A stretch of 64,000 nucleotides of DNA from Saxibacter everestensis (GTDB taxonomy: Bacteria > Actinomycetota > Actinomycetes > Actinomycetales > Brevibacteriaceae). The stretch covers positions 1,827,856-1,891,855 of the forward strand of contig NZ_CP090958.1 of the NCBI RefSeq assembly GCF_025787225.1, given 5' to 3'. Each line of letters begins with the position of its first letter. Positions within the stretch are counted from its first letter, which is position 1. A program made the translations under genes and the position numbers. The notes beneath the pieces were generated by a model. It had not been told where the DNA came from and made no database searches. It saw only the letters and a program-made list of their open reading frames with translations. Positions 3,889 through 40,006 of the stretch are shown here, one piece after another.

Positions 3889-3908
3889 ATTGGTTAAGAT
3901 CAGCCAAT
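3889..3908. promoter_or_regulatory. Imperfect palindrome over the arsR-type promoter and start codon
   Basis: ATTGGTT, a 6-base spacer AAGATC and AGCCAAT form a palindrome with 6 of 7 arm positions paired. It contains the likely -10 box TAAGAT (3895-3900), which lies six bases before the ATG at 3907, so the transcript is probably leaderless. The placement fits autorepression by the metal-sensing regulator that follows. Confidence 0.6.
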
Positions 3909-4272
3909 GAGCACCGACCATCCCACCGAAGCACAGGTAGCAGCTGCGGCCGCCACTTTCCACATGCTGTCTTCCGCGACACGGCTTCGGATCGTTTGGC
4001 TTCTCGTGCACGCCGAGTACGACGTGTCAGGCCTGGCCGAGGCCGCCAGCGCAAGCCTGCAGACGGTCAGCCAACATCTGGCTAAGCTCCGCCTCGCCGG
4101 ACTGATCAGCTCCAGGCGGGACGGCCGACACCTGTACTACACGGTTGATGATCCACACGTTGTGACGCTGGTGGTGGAGATCTTCGACCATATCGCCGCG
4201 GACGGAAGCATCGCACCGGACCCGGCGCCTCGGACCCCGCGGCCGATCCGGGAATCCGCAGAGACGTCCTGA
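3907..4272 (+). CDS. ArsR/SmtB-family metal-responsive repressor
   Basis: 121 residues with a winged helix-turn-helix (recognition region SLQTVSQHLAKLRLAGLISS, about residues 50-69, then the wing RRDGRHLYYTV). The last helix carries Asp82, His84 and His95 with Asp99 close by; the D-x-H-(10)-H spacing matches the alpha-5 metal site of the SmtB/NmtR group, which senses Zn, Ni or Co. There is no Cys pair of the arsenic type. No target transporter is adjacent, so the regulon may be itself plus distant genes. It reads out of a leaderless-looking promoter with a palindrome. Confidence 0.85.
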   Translation: MSTDHPTEAQVAAAAATFHMLSSATRLRIVWLLVHAEYDVSGLAEAASASLQTVSQHLAKLRLAGLISSRRDGRHLYYTVDDPHVVTLVVEIFDHIAADGSIAPDPAPRTPRPIRESAETS

Positions 4273-4300: not shown

Positions 4301-4400
4301 CCGCGAGTCAACCGGCTACCGTGATCGCCGGGTCAACCGGCTGCCGTGATCGCCGGATCAACCGGCTGCCGTGATCAGCGGTCTAACCTGCGGCCGTGAT
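4301..4400. repeat. Four 25-bp tandem repeats spanning and following the hisS stop codon
   Basis: On the minus strand the unit begins ATCACGGC and recurs at exactly 25-base intervals (anchors at 4400, 4375, 4350 and 4325). The first copy contains the last codons and TAG of hisS; the three others repeat the same coda with TGA in place of TAG. Copies differ at a few bases, so the duplication is not brand new. It fills most of the 110-bp space between arsR and hisS. Confidence 0.9.
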
Positions 4401-5723
4401 CAGCGGCTTGAGATCTGCCTCGGGTGGAGTCCAACTACCCGGGTCGGCAGCCACCTGCTCGCCGCTGCGGATGTCCTTCACCTGGTGCGAATCGGCATCC
4501 TCGGCAAACCAGACGAACGGGATGCCGCGACGGTCGGCAAACCGGATCTGCTTGCCGAACTTCGCCGCCGACGGCGATACGTCGGTCGGGATTCCACGGG
4601 AACGCAGCGTCGAGGCAATTGCATCTGCCAGACCGCGCTGCCCTTCATCCGCAACAGCTACAAGCACCGCGGTCGGAACGGATCGGCTCACAGTCACAAG
4701 ATTGTGATTGACCAGCCGGGTCAGTAGCCGGGAGATGCCGAGCGACACGCCAACGCCCGGATAGGTTCGGTCGCCTTCGCTCGCCAGGCTGTCATATCGT
4801 CCGCCGGAACAGACCGAGCCGAGGTCCTCGTGCCCCTGCAGGAGGGTCTCGTAAACCGTTCCGGTGTAGTAGTCCAGGCCACGCGCGATCTTCAGCTGCG
4901 CCACAACGACCCCTGGCGCACGCTGCTGTGCTGTCGCGATCAGCGCCGTCAGCGCCTCAAGCCCTTCGTCCAGCATCGGATGCGAGACCCCGAGGGCACG
5001 CACCTCGTCGGCGAATGACACGTCGTCGCCCTCGATCTGGGCCAGAGCAAGGCAAAGCCGCTGCTGCTCGGCGTCCGCACCGGCCGTTTCGGCCAGCAGC
5101 CTGCCAACGGCGTCCGGGCCGATCTTGTCGATCTTGTCCAGGGCACGCAGCACCGGCTGAACATCGGACAGACCGATGCCGCGGCTGAACCCTTCGAGCA
5201 GCTTGCGGTTATTGACCTGAATCCTGATCGGCGGAACTCCGATCTCTGACAGCTTCCTGAACACTTCGGCCATAACCAGCGGAAGCTCCGCCTCGAAATG
5301 GGCGGGAAGTTCGCCATCGCCGACAACGTCGATATCGGCCTGATAGAACTCGCGGAATCTTCCCTCCTGCGGACGCTCGCCGCGCCATACCGGCTGGATC
5401 TGATACCGCTTGAACGGAAAGGCGAGCTTGCCGGCATTCTCGACAACGTACCTCGCGAACGGAACGGTCAGGTCGAAGTGCAGGCCGAGCGGGTTCTTCG
5501 CGTCCGCAGTCCCTTCGCCGTGCAGACGGCTGACCGCGTAGATCTCCTTGTCGATCTCGCCATCTTTGGCCAGTAACGAGATCGGCTCGACGGCCCGAGT
5601 GTTCACCGAGGCGAAGCCATGCAACTCGAAGGTGCGCTGCAGCGTCTCCACGATGTGGTTTTCCAGGATCCGTTCTGCCGGTAGCCATTCCGGGAATCCG
5701 GACAGCGGCTTGGGACGCGCCAC
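4383..5723 (-). CDS. hisS: Histidine--tRNA ligase
   Basis: Class II synthetase of 446 aa charging tRNA-His. Motif 2 is around residues 110-135 (PVWRGERPQEGRFREFYQAD), the histidine-specific loop ARGLDYYTG is at about 280-288, and a C-terminal anticodon-binding domain follows (TAVLVAVADEG, then SAAKFGKQIRFADRRGIPF). The GTG start is preceded by GAAGGAG at 8 bases. Its 3' end has been tandemly duplicated (4301-4400). Next to the MBL hydrolase and rel, as usual in Actinobacteria. Confidence 0.97.
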   Translation of the reverse strand: MARPKPLSGFPEWLPAERILENHIVETLQRTFELHGFASVNTRAVEPISLLAKDGEIDKEIYAVSRLHGEGTADAKNPLGLHFDLTVPFARYVVENAGKLAFPFKRYQIQPVWRGERPQEGRFREFYQADIDVVGDGELPAHFEAELPLVMAEVFRKLSEIGVPPIRIQVNNRKLLEGFSRGIGLSDVQPVLRALDKIDKIGPDAVGRLLAETAGADAEQQRLCLALAQIEGDDVSFADEVRALGVSHPMLDEGLEALTALIATAQQRAPGVVVAQLKIARGLDYYTGTVYETLLQGHEDLGSVCSGGRYDSLASEGDRTYPGVGVSLGISRLLTRLVNHNLVTVSRSVPTAVLVAVADEGQRGLADAIASTLRSRGIPTDVSPSAAKFGKQIRFADRRGIPFVWFAEDADSHQVKDIRSGEQVAADPGSWTPPEADLKPLITAAG

Positions 5724-6942: not shown

Positions 6943-8330
6943 TGGCTGACAACACTCCTCCCCAGAACGCCGCCAAGCCGGTGCCGAAACCGATGCCGCG
7001 CCCGACTCCCGGCCCAGTCCCCTCGCCGGCCGCAATTCGACCCGGCACACCCAAAGCTCCGGCGATCGGCGGCGAAGATCTGGGCAAGGCCAGGGAATTC
7101 GGCCGGGTTGCCGATGACAACACGGTCTTCGTCCGCACCGCCGGTGGTGAGCGGGTCGTCGGTCAGTATCCGAACGCCAGCGCGGAAGAGGCATTGAACT
7201 ACTTTGCCCGCAAGTACGCCGACCTCGCCGCACAGGTCGTTTTGCTCGAACAGCGCCTCGCGGCCGGTGCGCCCGCGCACGACCTGCGGTCGACAGTCAA
7301 GCAACTGGCCGAAACCCTGCCTGAGGCCGCCGCCGTGGGCGATCTCGATTCACTGCTTGGCCGGGTTGAAGCGGCCAAGGCGCGGATCGACGAGCTGGAA
7401 GCCAGTCAGAACGCCGCCGCTCAGGACGCGAAGGCCGCGGCACTCGCCGAACGCACCGCACTGGTCGAACGGGCCGAAGAACTGGCCGCGGCCGACCCGG
7501 CAAAGGTGCAGTGGAAGACTTCGAGTGCCCAGATGGCGGCGCTCTTCGATGAATGGAAAGCGCTGCAGGCAAGTGGGCCTCGGCTCGCCCGCAGCGCCGA
7601 CGCCGAGCTCTGGGGGCGTTTCCGTAAAGCCCGCTCAGCATTCGACAAGCATCGTCGGGAATTCTTCGTCTCTCTGGATCAGCGCAACGCCGAAGCCAAG
7701 AAGGTCAAGCAGCGGTTGGTCGAAGCGGCGGAAGCGCTGCAGAATTCCACCGACTGGGCGGAGACCACGCACGAATACCGGCGGCTGATGGACGAGTGGA
7801 AAGCTTCACCACGCGCCGGCCGGAAGGACGACGATGCACTCTGGGCGAAGTTCCGTGGCGCACAGGACGTCTTCTTCGCCGCCCGCGAGGAACAAAACGC
7901 TCAACTGGATGCCGAGTACGAGAAGAACCTCGAAGTCAAGGAGGCTCTGCTTGAACGCGCCGAGGCACTGGTTCCGGTGAAGCAGCTCGGACAGGCCAAG
8001 GCCGAACTACGCGCCATCCAAGACGAATGGGAGGAGGCCGGTAAGGTGCCTCGCTCCCAGATGCACAAGGTTGAATCCCGGCTTCGTGCCGTTGAGAACG
8101 CCCTGTCGGCCGCCGAGGATCGCGAATGGAACCGGAGTAACCCCGAAGCGAAAGCGCGTGCCGAAGGTGCGCTCAGCCAACTCGACGATTCGATCGCCGA
8201 GCTTGAGGCGAATCTTGCCAAGGCTCAGGACAAGGGCGACGCCAAGGCCGTAGCCGCTGCCGAAGAAGCGCTGACCGCGCGCAAGGCCTGGCGTGAACAG
8301 GTGGTTAAGGCTGCCGCCGACTTCTCCTAG
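6942..8330 (+). CDS. DUF349 domain-containing coiled-coil protein
   Basis: 462 residues. The N-terminus is Pro-rich and disordered (PKPMPRPTPGPVPSP), followed by a globular segment with REFGRVADDNTVFVRTAGGE and then long charged helices. Three DUF349 repeats are visible as W-x2-S/T...LWxKFR patterns, for example LFDEWKALQASG, LWGRFRKARSAFDKH, LMDEWKASPRAG and LWAKFRGAQDVFF. The function of the family is unknown; bacterial members are cytoplasmic and helical. ATG at 6942 is chosen because the conserved part begins soon after. It stands alone on the plus strand between hisS and rel. Confidence 0.85.
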   Translation: MADNTPPQNAAKPVPKPMPRPTPGPVPSPAAIRPGTPKAPAIGGEDLGKAREFGRVADDNTVFVRTAGGERVVGQYPNASAEEALNYFARKYADLAAQVVLLEQRLAAGAPAHDLRSTVKQLAETLPEAAAVGDLDSLLGRVEAAKARIDELEASQNAAAQDAKAAALAERTALVERAEELAAADPAKVQWKTSSAQMAALFDEWKALQASGPRLARSADAELWGRFRKARSAFDKHRREFFVSLDQRNAEAKKVKQRLVEAAEALQNSTDWAETTHEYRRLMDEWKASPRAGRKDDDALWAKFRGAQDVFFAAREEQNAQLDAEYEKNLEVKEALLERAEALVPVKQLGQAKAELRAIQDEWEEAGKVPRSQMHKVESRLRAVENALSAAEDREWNRSNPEAKARAEGALSQLDDSIAELEANLAKAQDKGDAKAVAAAEEALTARKAWREQVVKAAADFS

Positions 8331-8407: not shown

Positions 8408-8443
8408 AGTGCCATGACTGACAGTGCCATGACTGACAGTGCC
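8408..8443 (+). repeat. 15-bp tandem duplication over a start codon
   Basis: The unit AGTGCCATGACTGAC is repeated directly and partly a third time, so the gene at 8414 has two consecutive in-frame ATG starts giving [10 protein letters not shown]. Either ATG could be used. Confidence 0.85.
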
Positions 8444-38226: not shown

Positions 38227-39150
38227 GTGAACTCCACAGCACAGTCCCAGCCGGGACGCCTCCACTGGGGCGCGATCCTGCTGGCTGCCCTCGTGCTGTG
38301 TTCGGTGGTTCTCACCGCCTGTACCGGACCACTCGACGTCGGCCCGGACGTCGCTGAGGACGCGGCACCGCAATCTTCGTCGATGCCGTCGAGGCACACA
38401 GTCCCGGTGTACTACATCGGCGCCGAAGCCAATGACGAACTGCTGTACCGGGAGTTCCGCTCCGCATCGTCAAGCGCCGACCCGATCGCCGACGCGGTCT
38501 CCGCCATGACGCGGTTACGGCCGAGGGATTCGACGTACAAGAACTTCTGGACACCGGCGAGTTCGGTGACCACCAGCCTGCAGAATCAGAGCATCACCGT
38601 GGACATCTCGTCCGATGCATTCGATACGAAGCTCAAGCTGACCGACCGCCAGGCCCAGCAATCGATCCAGCAACTGATCTATACCGCAACGGCCGCCGCA
38701 TCCCAGTTCCAGCTCGCCGACGGCATCACGTCGGTCGCGGTACTGGTGGACGGAATGCCGAGCTACCGTGCCTGGGACTCAATCGAACTGGGTCGTCCGG
38801 AGGGACGCTCTACTGCGGCCCGCTCACCGATCTGGCTGATCGACCCTGCGGAAGGCGGCCGGTTCTCCTCGCCGAAGGTCACAATCGCCGGCAGTGCCTG
38901 CTCGGACAACGGCAGGATCGGCTGGGAGGTGAGGTCCGGCAACGGCGATGTGATCGAAGCCGGCACCCTCCCGGTGTCGACCGACGTGAACAATCCCGCA
39001 AGTTTCGAATTCACCGTCGACCTGAAACCCGGTGCTTACACAGTCGCGGTATACGGCGTGCCCAAGGGCGAGGACCTATCCAGCTCAGCCAGCCGACGCG
39101 AATACATCGACCGGAAGTCGTTGACCGTAACCGGCGATGCCCTGCGCTGA
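38227..39150 (+). CDS. GerMN/Gmad2 domain lipoprotein
   Basis: 307 residues. A signal peptide with lipobox LTAC (WGAILLAALVLCSVVLTACT) is followed by a GerMN domain (VPVYYIGAEANDELLYREFR, then VTTSLQNQSITVDISSDAFD and QLIYTATAAASQFQLADG) and an immunoglobulin-like Gmad2 domain (SPKVTIAGSACSDNGRIGWE, PGAYTVAVYG). These domains were named from spore-germination proteins, but non-sporulating actinobacteria have them in envelope lipoproteins such as LpqB. I take GTG 38227 as the start since it gives a normal signal peptide; the frame extends farther upstream. Ligand unknown. Confidence 0.82.
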   Translation: MNSTAQSQPGRLHWGAILLAALVLCSVVLTACTGPLDVGPDVAEDAAPQSSSMPSRHTVPVYYIGAEANDELLYREFRSASSSADPIADAVSAMTRLRPRDSTYKNFWTPASSVTTSLQNQSITVDISSDAFDTKLKLTDRQAQQSIQQLIYTATAAASQFQLADGITSVAVLVDGMPSYRAWDSIELGRPEGRSTAARSPIWLIDPAEGGRFSSPKVTIAGSACSDNGRIGWEVRSGNGDVIEAGTLPVSTDVNNPASFEFTVDLKPGAYTVAVYGVPKGEDLSSSASRREYIDRKSLTVTGDALR

Positions 39151-39270
39151 TCTGCTGCAGCTAGGTCCAGCGGCCGAGCGCTGACCTGCTGCAGCTAGAT
39201 CCCAGCGGCCGAGCGCGCCGCTAGATCCCAGCGACCCGCTGCAACTAGTCCCAGCGGCCGATCGCGGCCA
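39144..39270. repeat. Degenerate ~34-bp tandem repeats between convergent stop codons
   Basis: Read on the plus strand, units beginning GCGCTGA and ending CAGCGGCCGA recur at about 39144, 39178 and (shortened) 39213, and the last copy is the coding end of rsmE. Each unit carries a minus-strand TAG in the same place as the rsmE stop. The whole 94-bp space between the lipoprotein and rsmE is made of these copies. Confidence 0.85.
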
Positions 39271-40006
39271 GCAGAACCGACAGCGCGACCGGGCCGGCCG
39301 TCGATGATCGGAGCACATGGGGGCCGAGCTTCGCTGTGGTGGCACCCGCCGCGGTGAACAGTTCAAGCTCCTCGTCGCCGAAGCCACCTTCGGGTCCGAC
39401 GATCAATAGAGTCTGGCCGGACTGCCTGGCTTTCAGCTCTCGGCCAAAGGTGGCGAACGGCAAGGTCGCGTCTTCATGCAGCACGACTGCGCCGACATCC
39501 GGCTGATCGGCGATCAATGCGGCAAGCTGTTTCGGAGTGTGCAGCGCCAGCACCTTCGGCAGCCAGAGCCGGCGCGACTGCTGAGCGGCGGCCCGAACGG
39601 TTGACTTCCACTTCGCTTGGGACTTCGCTGCGCGTTTCGCCGGCCAGCTCACGATACTGCGCTGAGCGGCCAGCGGGATGATCGCATCAGCACCGATTTC
39701 GGTAGCCGACTCGATGGCCTGCAGGTCGCGGTCTGCCTTCGCCAGCGACTGCACCAGAACGAACTGCTGGTCCGCCGGGGTCTCGCGGACCACCGCATCG
39801 ACACTCAGCGACATCCGGTCAGGATCGGCGCGCAGGACTGAGCACGAAGCACCGAGGCCGGCGCCATCGGAAAGGATGATGGACTCGCCGGGTGCGATCC
39901 GTCGCACGCGCACGGCATGGTGCGCTACCTCGCCGCCTACTCCAATGCTGTCGCCCCTCTCGACGCCGGACGGCAGCTCATCGGAGTAGAACAGCGGCGC
40001 GGTCAC
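39245..40006 (-). CDS. rsmE: 16S rRNA (uracil-1498-N3)-methyltransferase RsmE
   Basis: 253 residues. N-terminal PUA-like domain ([20 protein letters not shown]) and a SPOUT knot domain with [20 protein letters not shown] and [17 protein letters not shown], ending in [16 protein letters not shown]. It methylates U1498 in the decoding centre of 16S rRNA. GTG start overlaps the dnaJ stop (GTGA). Its 3' end is tandemly duplicated. Confidence 0.95.

Follow-up and report, generated by a model that had tools for sequence, protein, structure and literature searches.

Bacterial minisatellites and VNTR loci are short tandem duplications that arise by slipped-strand or template-switch events. Two further systems bring repeats to the ends of genes: the MIRU elements of mycobacteria, a single dispersed family whose tandem units lie around gene junctions and contain stop codons, and the REP/BIME elements of enterobacteria, which are found at gene 3' ends and are abundant in convergent gaps. 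For Beggiatoaceae, intergenic TAACTGA direct repeats are described in an excerpt of a published report (PMC4679880). Tandem duplications that span stop codons are not described for bacteria in the titles and abstract openings of the open-licence literature that we found. Here, we examine a convergent gene pair in a window of 64,000 nucleotides from Saxibacter everestensis (genome G000, which shares its family with G001-G024), together with the wider occurrence of such arrays in the same genome. The genomes searched numbered 39, with no second genome of genus g1 among them.

RESULTS

Anatomy of the array between the lipoprotein gene and rsmE

A gene for a GerMN-type lipoprotein (38227-39150, forward strand; Pfam Germane PF10646 and Gmad2 PF10648; start as chosen by the gene finder; TGA stop at 39148-39150) converges on rsmE, of the 16S rRNA methyltransferase family (39245-40006, reverse strand; Pfam PF04452, Methyltrans_RNA, and PF20260, PUA_4). 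The order of the neighbors of rsmE is kept in relatives, and the genes next after it are presumably dnaJ and hrcA. The initial annotation had described the space between the two genes as composed of degenerate repeats of about 34 bp with copies of the rsmE stop region and a resemblance to the lipoprotein stop region, and this description is borne out: the 94-bp convergent gap (39151-39244) and both gene ends together form four degenerate copies of one unit of about 34 bp. Divided by hand and aligned with MAFFT, these are unit 1 (39144-39177, 34 bp), in which the real lipoprotein stop is joined by an rsmE-tail copy; unit 2 (39178-39212, 35 bp), in which both gene ends are copied; unit 3 (39213-39236, shortened to 24 bp), which holds an rsmE-tail copy, CTAGATCCCAGCGACC; and unit 4 (39233-39266, about 34 bp with approximate boundaries), which contains the real rsmE stop at 39245-39247 and overlaps unit 3 by 4 bases.

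This division is further supported by short shared motifs. CTAG, which contains the complement of the rsmE TAG stop, occurs at 39161, 39195, 39221, and 39245 and is followed each time by the rsmE-tail core CAGCG(G/A)CC, while the lipoprotein end GCGCTGA is real at 39144-39150, copied at 39178-39184, absent from copy 3, and altered in copy 4. The picture of even repeats filling the gap holds only in part, as the repeats are present but successive CTAGs are spaced unevenly by 34, 26, and 24 bp, because copy 3 lost bases, and the sequence from 39245 onward is rsmE coding DNA. The core array found by TRF (39144-39216) has a period of 34 and 2.1 copies with 92% matches and a score of 125, and its degenerate continuations (period 26, 71-73% matches) reach 39266; a repeat search likewise paired 39149-39181 with 39233-39265 (82%) and 39139-39168 with 39173-39202 (87%). 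In 2000 mononucleotide shuffles of 39114-39296, the best TRF score was 52 against the real 125, and the same shuffles yielded 20 arrays in total with a period of at least 12 and a score of at least 30. The rsmE-gap array therefore consists of adjacent head-to-tail copies above chance, as defines a short tandem duplication or minisatellite, and it matches the genome once, so its unit is locus-specific.

The convergent order of lipoprotein gene and rsmE is common to G002, G029 (L012), G038 (L024), and Tersicoccus (L032), and no array with a TRF score of at least 30 was found in three of these four orthologous gaps (G002, G038, and Tersicoccus). The fourth, in G029 of another family, holds a weak array that spans the rsmE stop (L012:2206-2267; 17 bp x 3.8, 69%, score 50); G029 also has three matches to the Y-family polymerase profile (IMS). 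Among the Brevibacterium loci listed, no lipoprotein match (E of at most 1e-5) lies beside rsmE, and a phoH-like gene comes after it. At other rsmE 3' ends, with three shorter loci left out, a stop-spanning array with a score of at least 40 was found in 0 of 27 (26 Brevibacterium and one Serinicoccus). The RsmE proteins compared end in LGRW in G029 and G038, LGRWPAA in Tersicoccus, and GAWDRA in G002, and by this comparison the GRWD end of the present RsmE is plausibly native, with the other tail copies derived from it. The simplest ancestor, we infer, would have been a single unit with about ten bases separating the two stops.

Recurrence of stop-spanning arrays across the genome

Independent occurrence at a second locus had also been claimed. 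An array of 25 bp x 3.8 (4307-4401) does span the stop of a hisS-like gene (4383-5723, reverse strand), beside a small convergent ArsR-type HTH gene (3907-4272, forward strand), and it is probably the locus that the initial annotation left unnamed. A perfect repeat of 15 bp x 2.4 (8408-8443) also lies in the gap downstream of a gene ending at 8330.

To follow this recurrence beyond the window, arrays were called by TRF in a G000 sample comprising the window and 80 further stretches (1.66 Mb, 41% of the genome, 1517 called genes) and in 400 kb from each of G002, G011, and G018 (1029 genes together). Genes were called by our own unvalidated codon-usage script with approximate starts, the annotation covering no RNA genes, and arrays with a period below 12 and overlapping weaker TRF rows were not counted. 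The sample was split into a discovery half (774 genes), which includes the window that first showed the pattern, and a replication half (743 genes), which excludes it.

At a TRF score of at least 80, 31 of 1517 stops in G000 lay in arrays compared with 4 of 1029 in the relatives (one each in G002 and G011, two in G018; Fisher P = 2e-4), with 19/774 in the discovery half and 12/743 in the replication half, the latter alone differing from the relatives at P = 0.009. At a score of at least 50, the counts were 41/1517 and 11/1029 (P = 0.004), the discovery half contributing 25/774 and the replication half 16/743, the latter alone not differing significantly from the relatives (P = 0.077); by genome, the relatives had 3/336 (G002), 2/339 (G011), and 6/354 (G018), the last being close below the replication half. 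Shuffled sequence gave few arrays. In isolated 210-bp stretches around stops, 35 of 1423 stops were covered, a number that fell to 1 of 1423 when each stretch was dinucleotide-shuffled once, and mononucleotide-shuffled gaps (154 kb) gave a single array in total. The initial annotation had argued for a recurring process rather than chance and had proposed a scan of stop codons against shuffles and relatives. Run on 41% of the genome, that scan yielded an excess over both, the three relatives together having fewer covered stops, and not the lack of excess that would have spoken against the proposal.

The excess extends into coding DNA, which held 64 arrays with a score of at least 80 in G000 (0.045-0.046 per kb) versus 16 in the relatives (0.006-0.024 per kb). 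Strong arrays per 400 kb numbered 4 in G011, the fewest, 10 in G002, and 15 in G018. TRF match percentages range from the 60s to 100, and the duplication events therefore look to be of many ages. Among 131 gap or stop arrays, only four pairs were similar, each inside one 20-kb stretch, and no unit was shared more widely. Six perfect 35-bp copies outside called genes (L091:11275-11483 in G000) form a candidate variable-number locus.

Distribution of arrays relative to stop codons

Counting gaps of 10 to 800 bp, array coverage of gap bases in G000 was 11.6% for convergent gaps, 3.2% for codirectional gaps, and 1.9% for divergent ones, compared with 4.65%, 0.94%, and 0.23% in the three relatives pooled, a coverage about 2.5 to 8 times theirs. 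Within convergent gaps, coverage rose from 8.9% within 20 bp of the stop to 13-16.5% at 20-80 bp, with 16-16.5% in the 40-80 bp part, and fell to 9.9% at 120-200 bp, and some arrays sit in gaps without touching any stop. Start codons lay inside arrays in 5 of 1517 genes, against 41 for stops. We then compared these positions with a placement model in which arrays were dropped randomly into gaps and allowed to overhang a gene only over its stop and by at most one unit; it started from the 108 arrays that had 30% or more of their length inside counted gaps and placed the 93 of them that lay in convergent or codirectional ones. The model predicted 22.6 +/- 2.9 covered convergent stops where 23 were observed, and 10.6 +/- 2.3 codirectional stops where 15 were observed, the latter being at the upper 97.5% point of a model that reserves no promoter space; reserving such space would favor the stop side. 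The arrays are thus most likely not aimed at stops, and the stop codon most likely just happens to lie within them, since random placement predicts the convergent count and since gap coverage is higher away from stops. On the same grounds, the reading of these events as a special stop-codon duplication is not supported, for neutral placement accounts for the convergent stops and coverage does not peak at the stop.

For the analyses of position and codon identity, the 41 covered stops were reduced to 40 by dropping one array that was more than 90% coding and to 39 by dropping one stop without a called neighbor. The first repeat copy contains the stop in 37 of 40 cases, and the position of the stop within it leans toward a short coding overhang (KS P = 0.007 unscaled, P = 0.065 when scaled to the possible positions). 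TAG is over-represented among covered stops (21/39 versus 459/1424 over all genes, P = 0.008), less clearly when the comparison is restricted to gaps of at least 20 bp (21/39 versus 346/909, P = 0.064); by gap type, the shares are 15/23 versus 144/343 for convergent stops (P = 0.048) and 6/16 versus 202/566 for codirectional stops (P = 1.0).

Period, microhomology, and repair genes

Of the 131 gap or stop arrays, 123 had a period of 12-54 bp. Periods divisible by 3 were found in 131 of 141 coding arrays compared with 53 of 131 gap and stop arrays, and such frame-preserving periods in coding DNA are as expected if selection removes frame changes. In 22 exact two-copy-like duplications outside genes, microhomology averaged 2.7 bp, against 0.73 bp in 400 simulated duplications passing the identical detector (P = 6e-5), and reached at least 5 bp in 7 of the 22 versus 3 of the 400; six of the 22 had none. 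Eight of the 22 have at least 2.5 copies, which could inflate microhomology, and the 14 with at most 2.4 copies still averaged 2.2 bp, with at least 5 bp in 3/14 versus 3/400. These values point to slippage, template switching, or microhomology-assisted joining, which the data do not separate, as the source of part of the duplications.

Missing repair genes were considered as a cause and rejected, as none of the profiles searched sets G000 apart: Ku is present in G000 and 26 of 38 relatives, LigD_N in G000 and 12 of 22 relatives, and NucS in all 39 genomes searched, while a search of G000 and 22 relatives for MutS_V gave two matches in G002 and none in the other genomes. As background, MutS/MutL is absent from almost all Actinomycetota according to an excerpt of PMC5290159, and the NucS system is reported in an excerpt of PMC8228993 not to correct indels. 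Among the families searched, the only repair or polymerase difference seen for G000 was a third IMS match, a DinB-type paralog at G000:C1:1455368-1455802. Separately, the Ku match of G011 is split over two short stretches (G011:C1:1425795-1426076), possibly a broken ku, a few kb from its LigD_N match; this one genome also has the fewest strong arrays.

DISCUSSION

Considering the array and its recurrence, the distribution of arrays, the microhomology excess, and the absence of a common unit, we regard it as probable that a generic and untargeted process of short tandem duplication, commoner or better retained in G000, left copies wherever proteins and promoters were unharmed. At the rsmE locus, a stretch of about 34 bp that took in a short original gap together with the final bases of the two convergent genes would have been duplicated repeatedly, after which the copies would have drifted and one lost bases. 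Genome-wide, the duplications would originate in slipped-strand or template-switch replication or in microhomology-assisted repair, and would persist where they are harmless. When the stop is inside the duplicated stretch, translation still terminates in the first copy and the protein stays the same, and convergent gaps would accumulate the most arrays because they offer two permissive ends and no promoter. The patterns of period, placement, and gap type fit such an untargeted process filtered by selection, and the excess of G000 over its relatives may come from duplications that arise more often, are selected against less strongly, or are retained for longer.

A process aimed at gene ends, in which stop-spanning duplications would result, for example, from termination, from colliding transcription, or from a nick close to TAG, finds some support in stops being covered far more than starts (41 versus 5 of 1517), in the TAG excess, and in the marginal codirectional excess of covered stops. 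Nevertheless, we hold it to be very unlikely, given that convergent-gap coverage is greater at 20-80 bp than adjoining the stop, that random placement yields the observed count, and that coding DNA is also richer in strong arrays than in the relatives, which takes the excess beyond gene ends. Selection for a bidirectional transcription terminator, with the unit as a quasi-palindrome whose copies strengthen termination between convergent genes, appears quite unlikely as well. The rsmE-lipoprotein gap does fold well on both strands (z of -3.9 and -3.3), and arrays are richest in convergent gaps, but fold stability rises merely from repeating a partly palindromic unit, and a scan requiring a T run found no terminator-like site on either strand of 38900-39500. 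Moreover, when single units were compared with array-free gap DNA, no significant excess of self-complementarity was seen for convergent gaps (P = 0.32 and 0.125) or for codirectional ones (P = 0.43 and 0.28), P was 0.076 and 0.02 for the 15 arrays in divergent gaps, where no terminators are expected, and the orthologous convergent gaps of G002, G038, and Tersicoccus are array-free. A structured RNA was likewise rejected, as Rfam gave nothing above the gathering score; the single sub-threshold match (39307-39364, 23.6 bits versus a gathering score of 56.8) falls inside rsmE and outside the array.

A mutator state specific to this genome, such as an extra DinB-type polymerase, is in our judgment a rather improbable driver of the G000 excess. 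It would be consistent with the three Y-family (IMS) matches in G000, the 15 family relatives searched having two each, and with mycobacterial DinB2, which an excerpt of PMC10159617 reports to cause frameshifts in homopolymer runs. Yet the slippage in that excerpt concerns mononucleotide runs and not units of about 34 bp, the correlation is a single one in one genome, and weaker selection or longer retention would equally raise the array count, so the extra DinB-type gene is a lead only. Somewhat broader, and still unlikely, is a lineage with a heritable tendency to tandem duplications of about 12-50 bp genome-wide, for example via such a polymerase; if it were so, the growth of gene ends and convergent gaps by duplication would far outpace that in the rest of the family, and the copies of stop regions would be readable as a clock of the duplication process.

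The locus illustrates that a spacer can consist entirely of copies of the neighboring gene ends, and the placement results offer a quantitative neutral account in which duplications that hold a stop do not alter the protein and hence build up at gene ends and in convergent gaps. With arrays several-fold denser than in its relatives, G000 may serve as a natural case for asking what differences in repair or in polymerases govern how often short tandem duplications arise in Actinomycetota.

Comparison with known repeat systems

A dispersed family of the REP/BIME or MIRU kind was rejected, as the rsmE unit is single in the genome and only four pairs among 131 arrays were similar. The arrays resemble REP/BIME in lying at 3' ends, in being rich in convergent gaps, and in the palindromic unit at the rsmE locus, but they lack a common dispersed sequence, and palindromes are not significantly enriched among them in convergent or codirectional gaps. 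Like MIRU, they form tandem units at gene junctions that contain stops, whereas their units are unrelated between loci. With the Beggiatoaceae repeats, as far as the excerpt of that report describes them, they share an abundance of intergenic direct repeats in one lineage and differ in having locus-specific units rather than a fixed heptamer. Closest are the minisatellites and VNTR loci, which likewise consist of short, locus-specific, head-to-tail units, mostly in gaps, with microhomology and decaying identity. The arrays of G000 are set apart from these by being denser than in three relatives and known here from one genome of the genus. Overall, the pattern is ordinary in kind and unusual in density.
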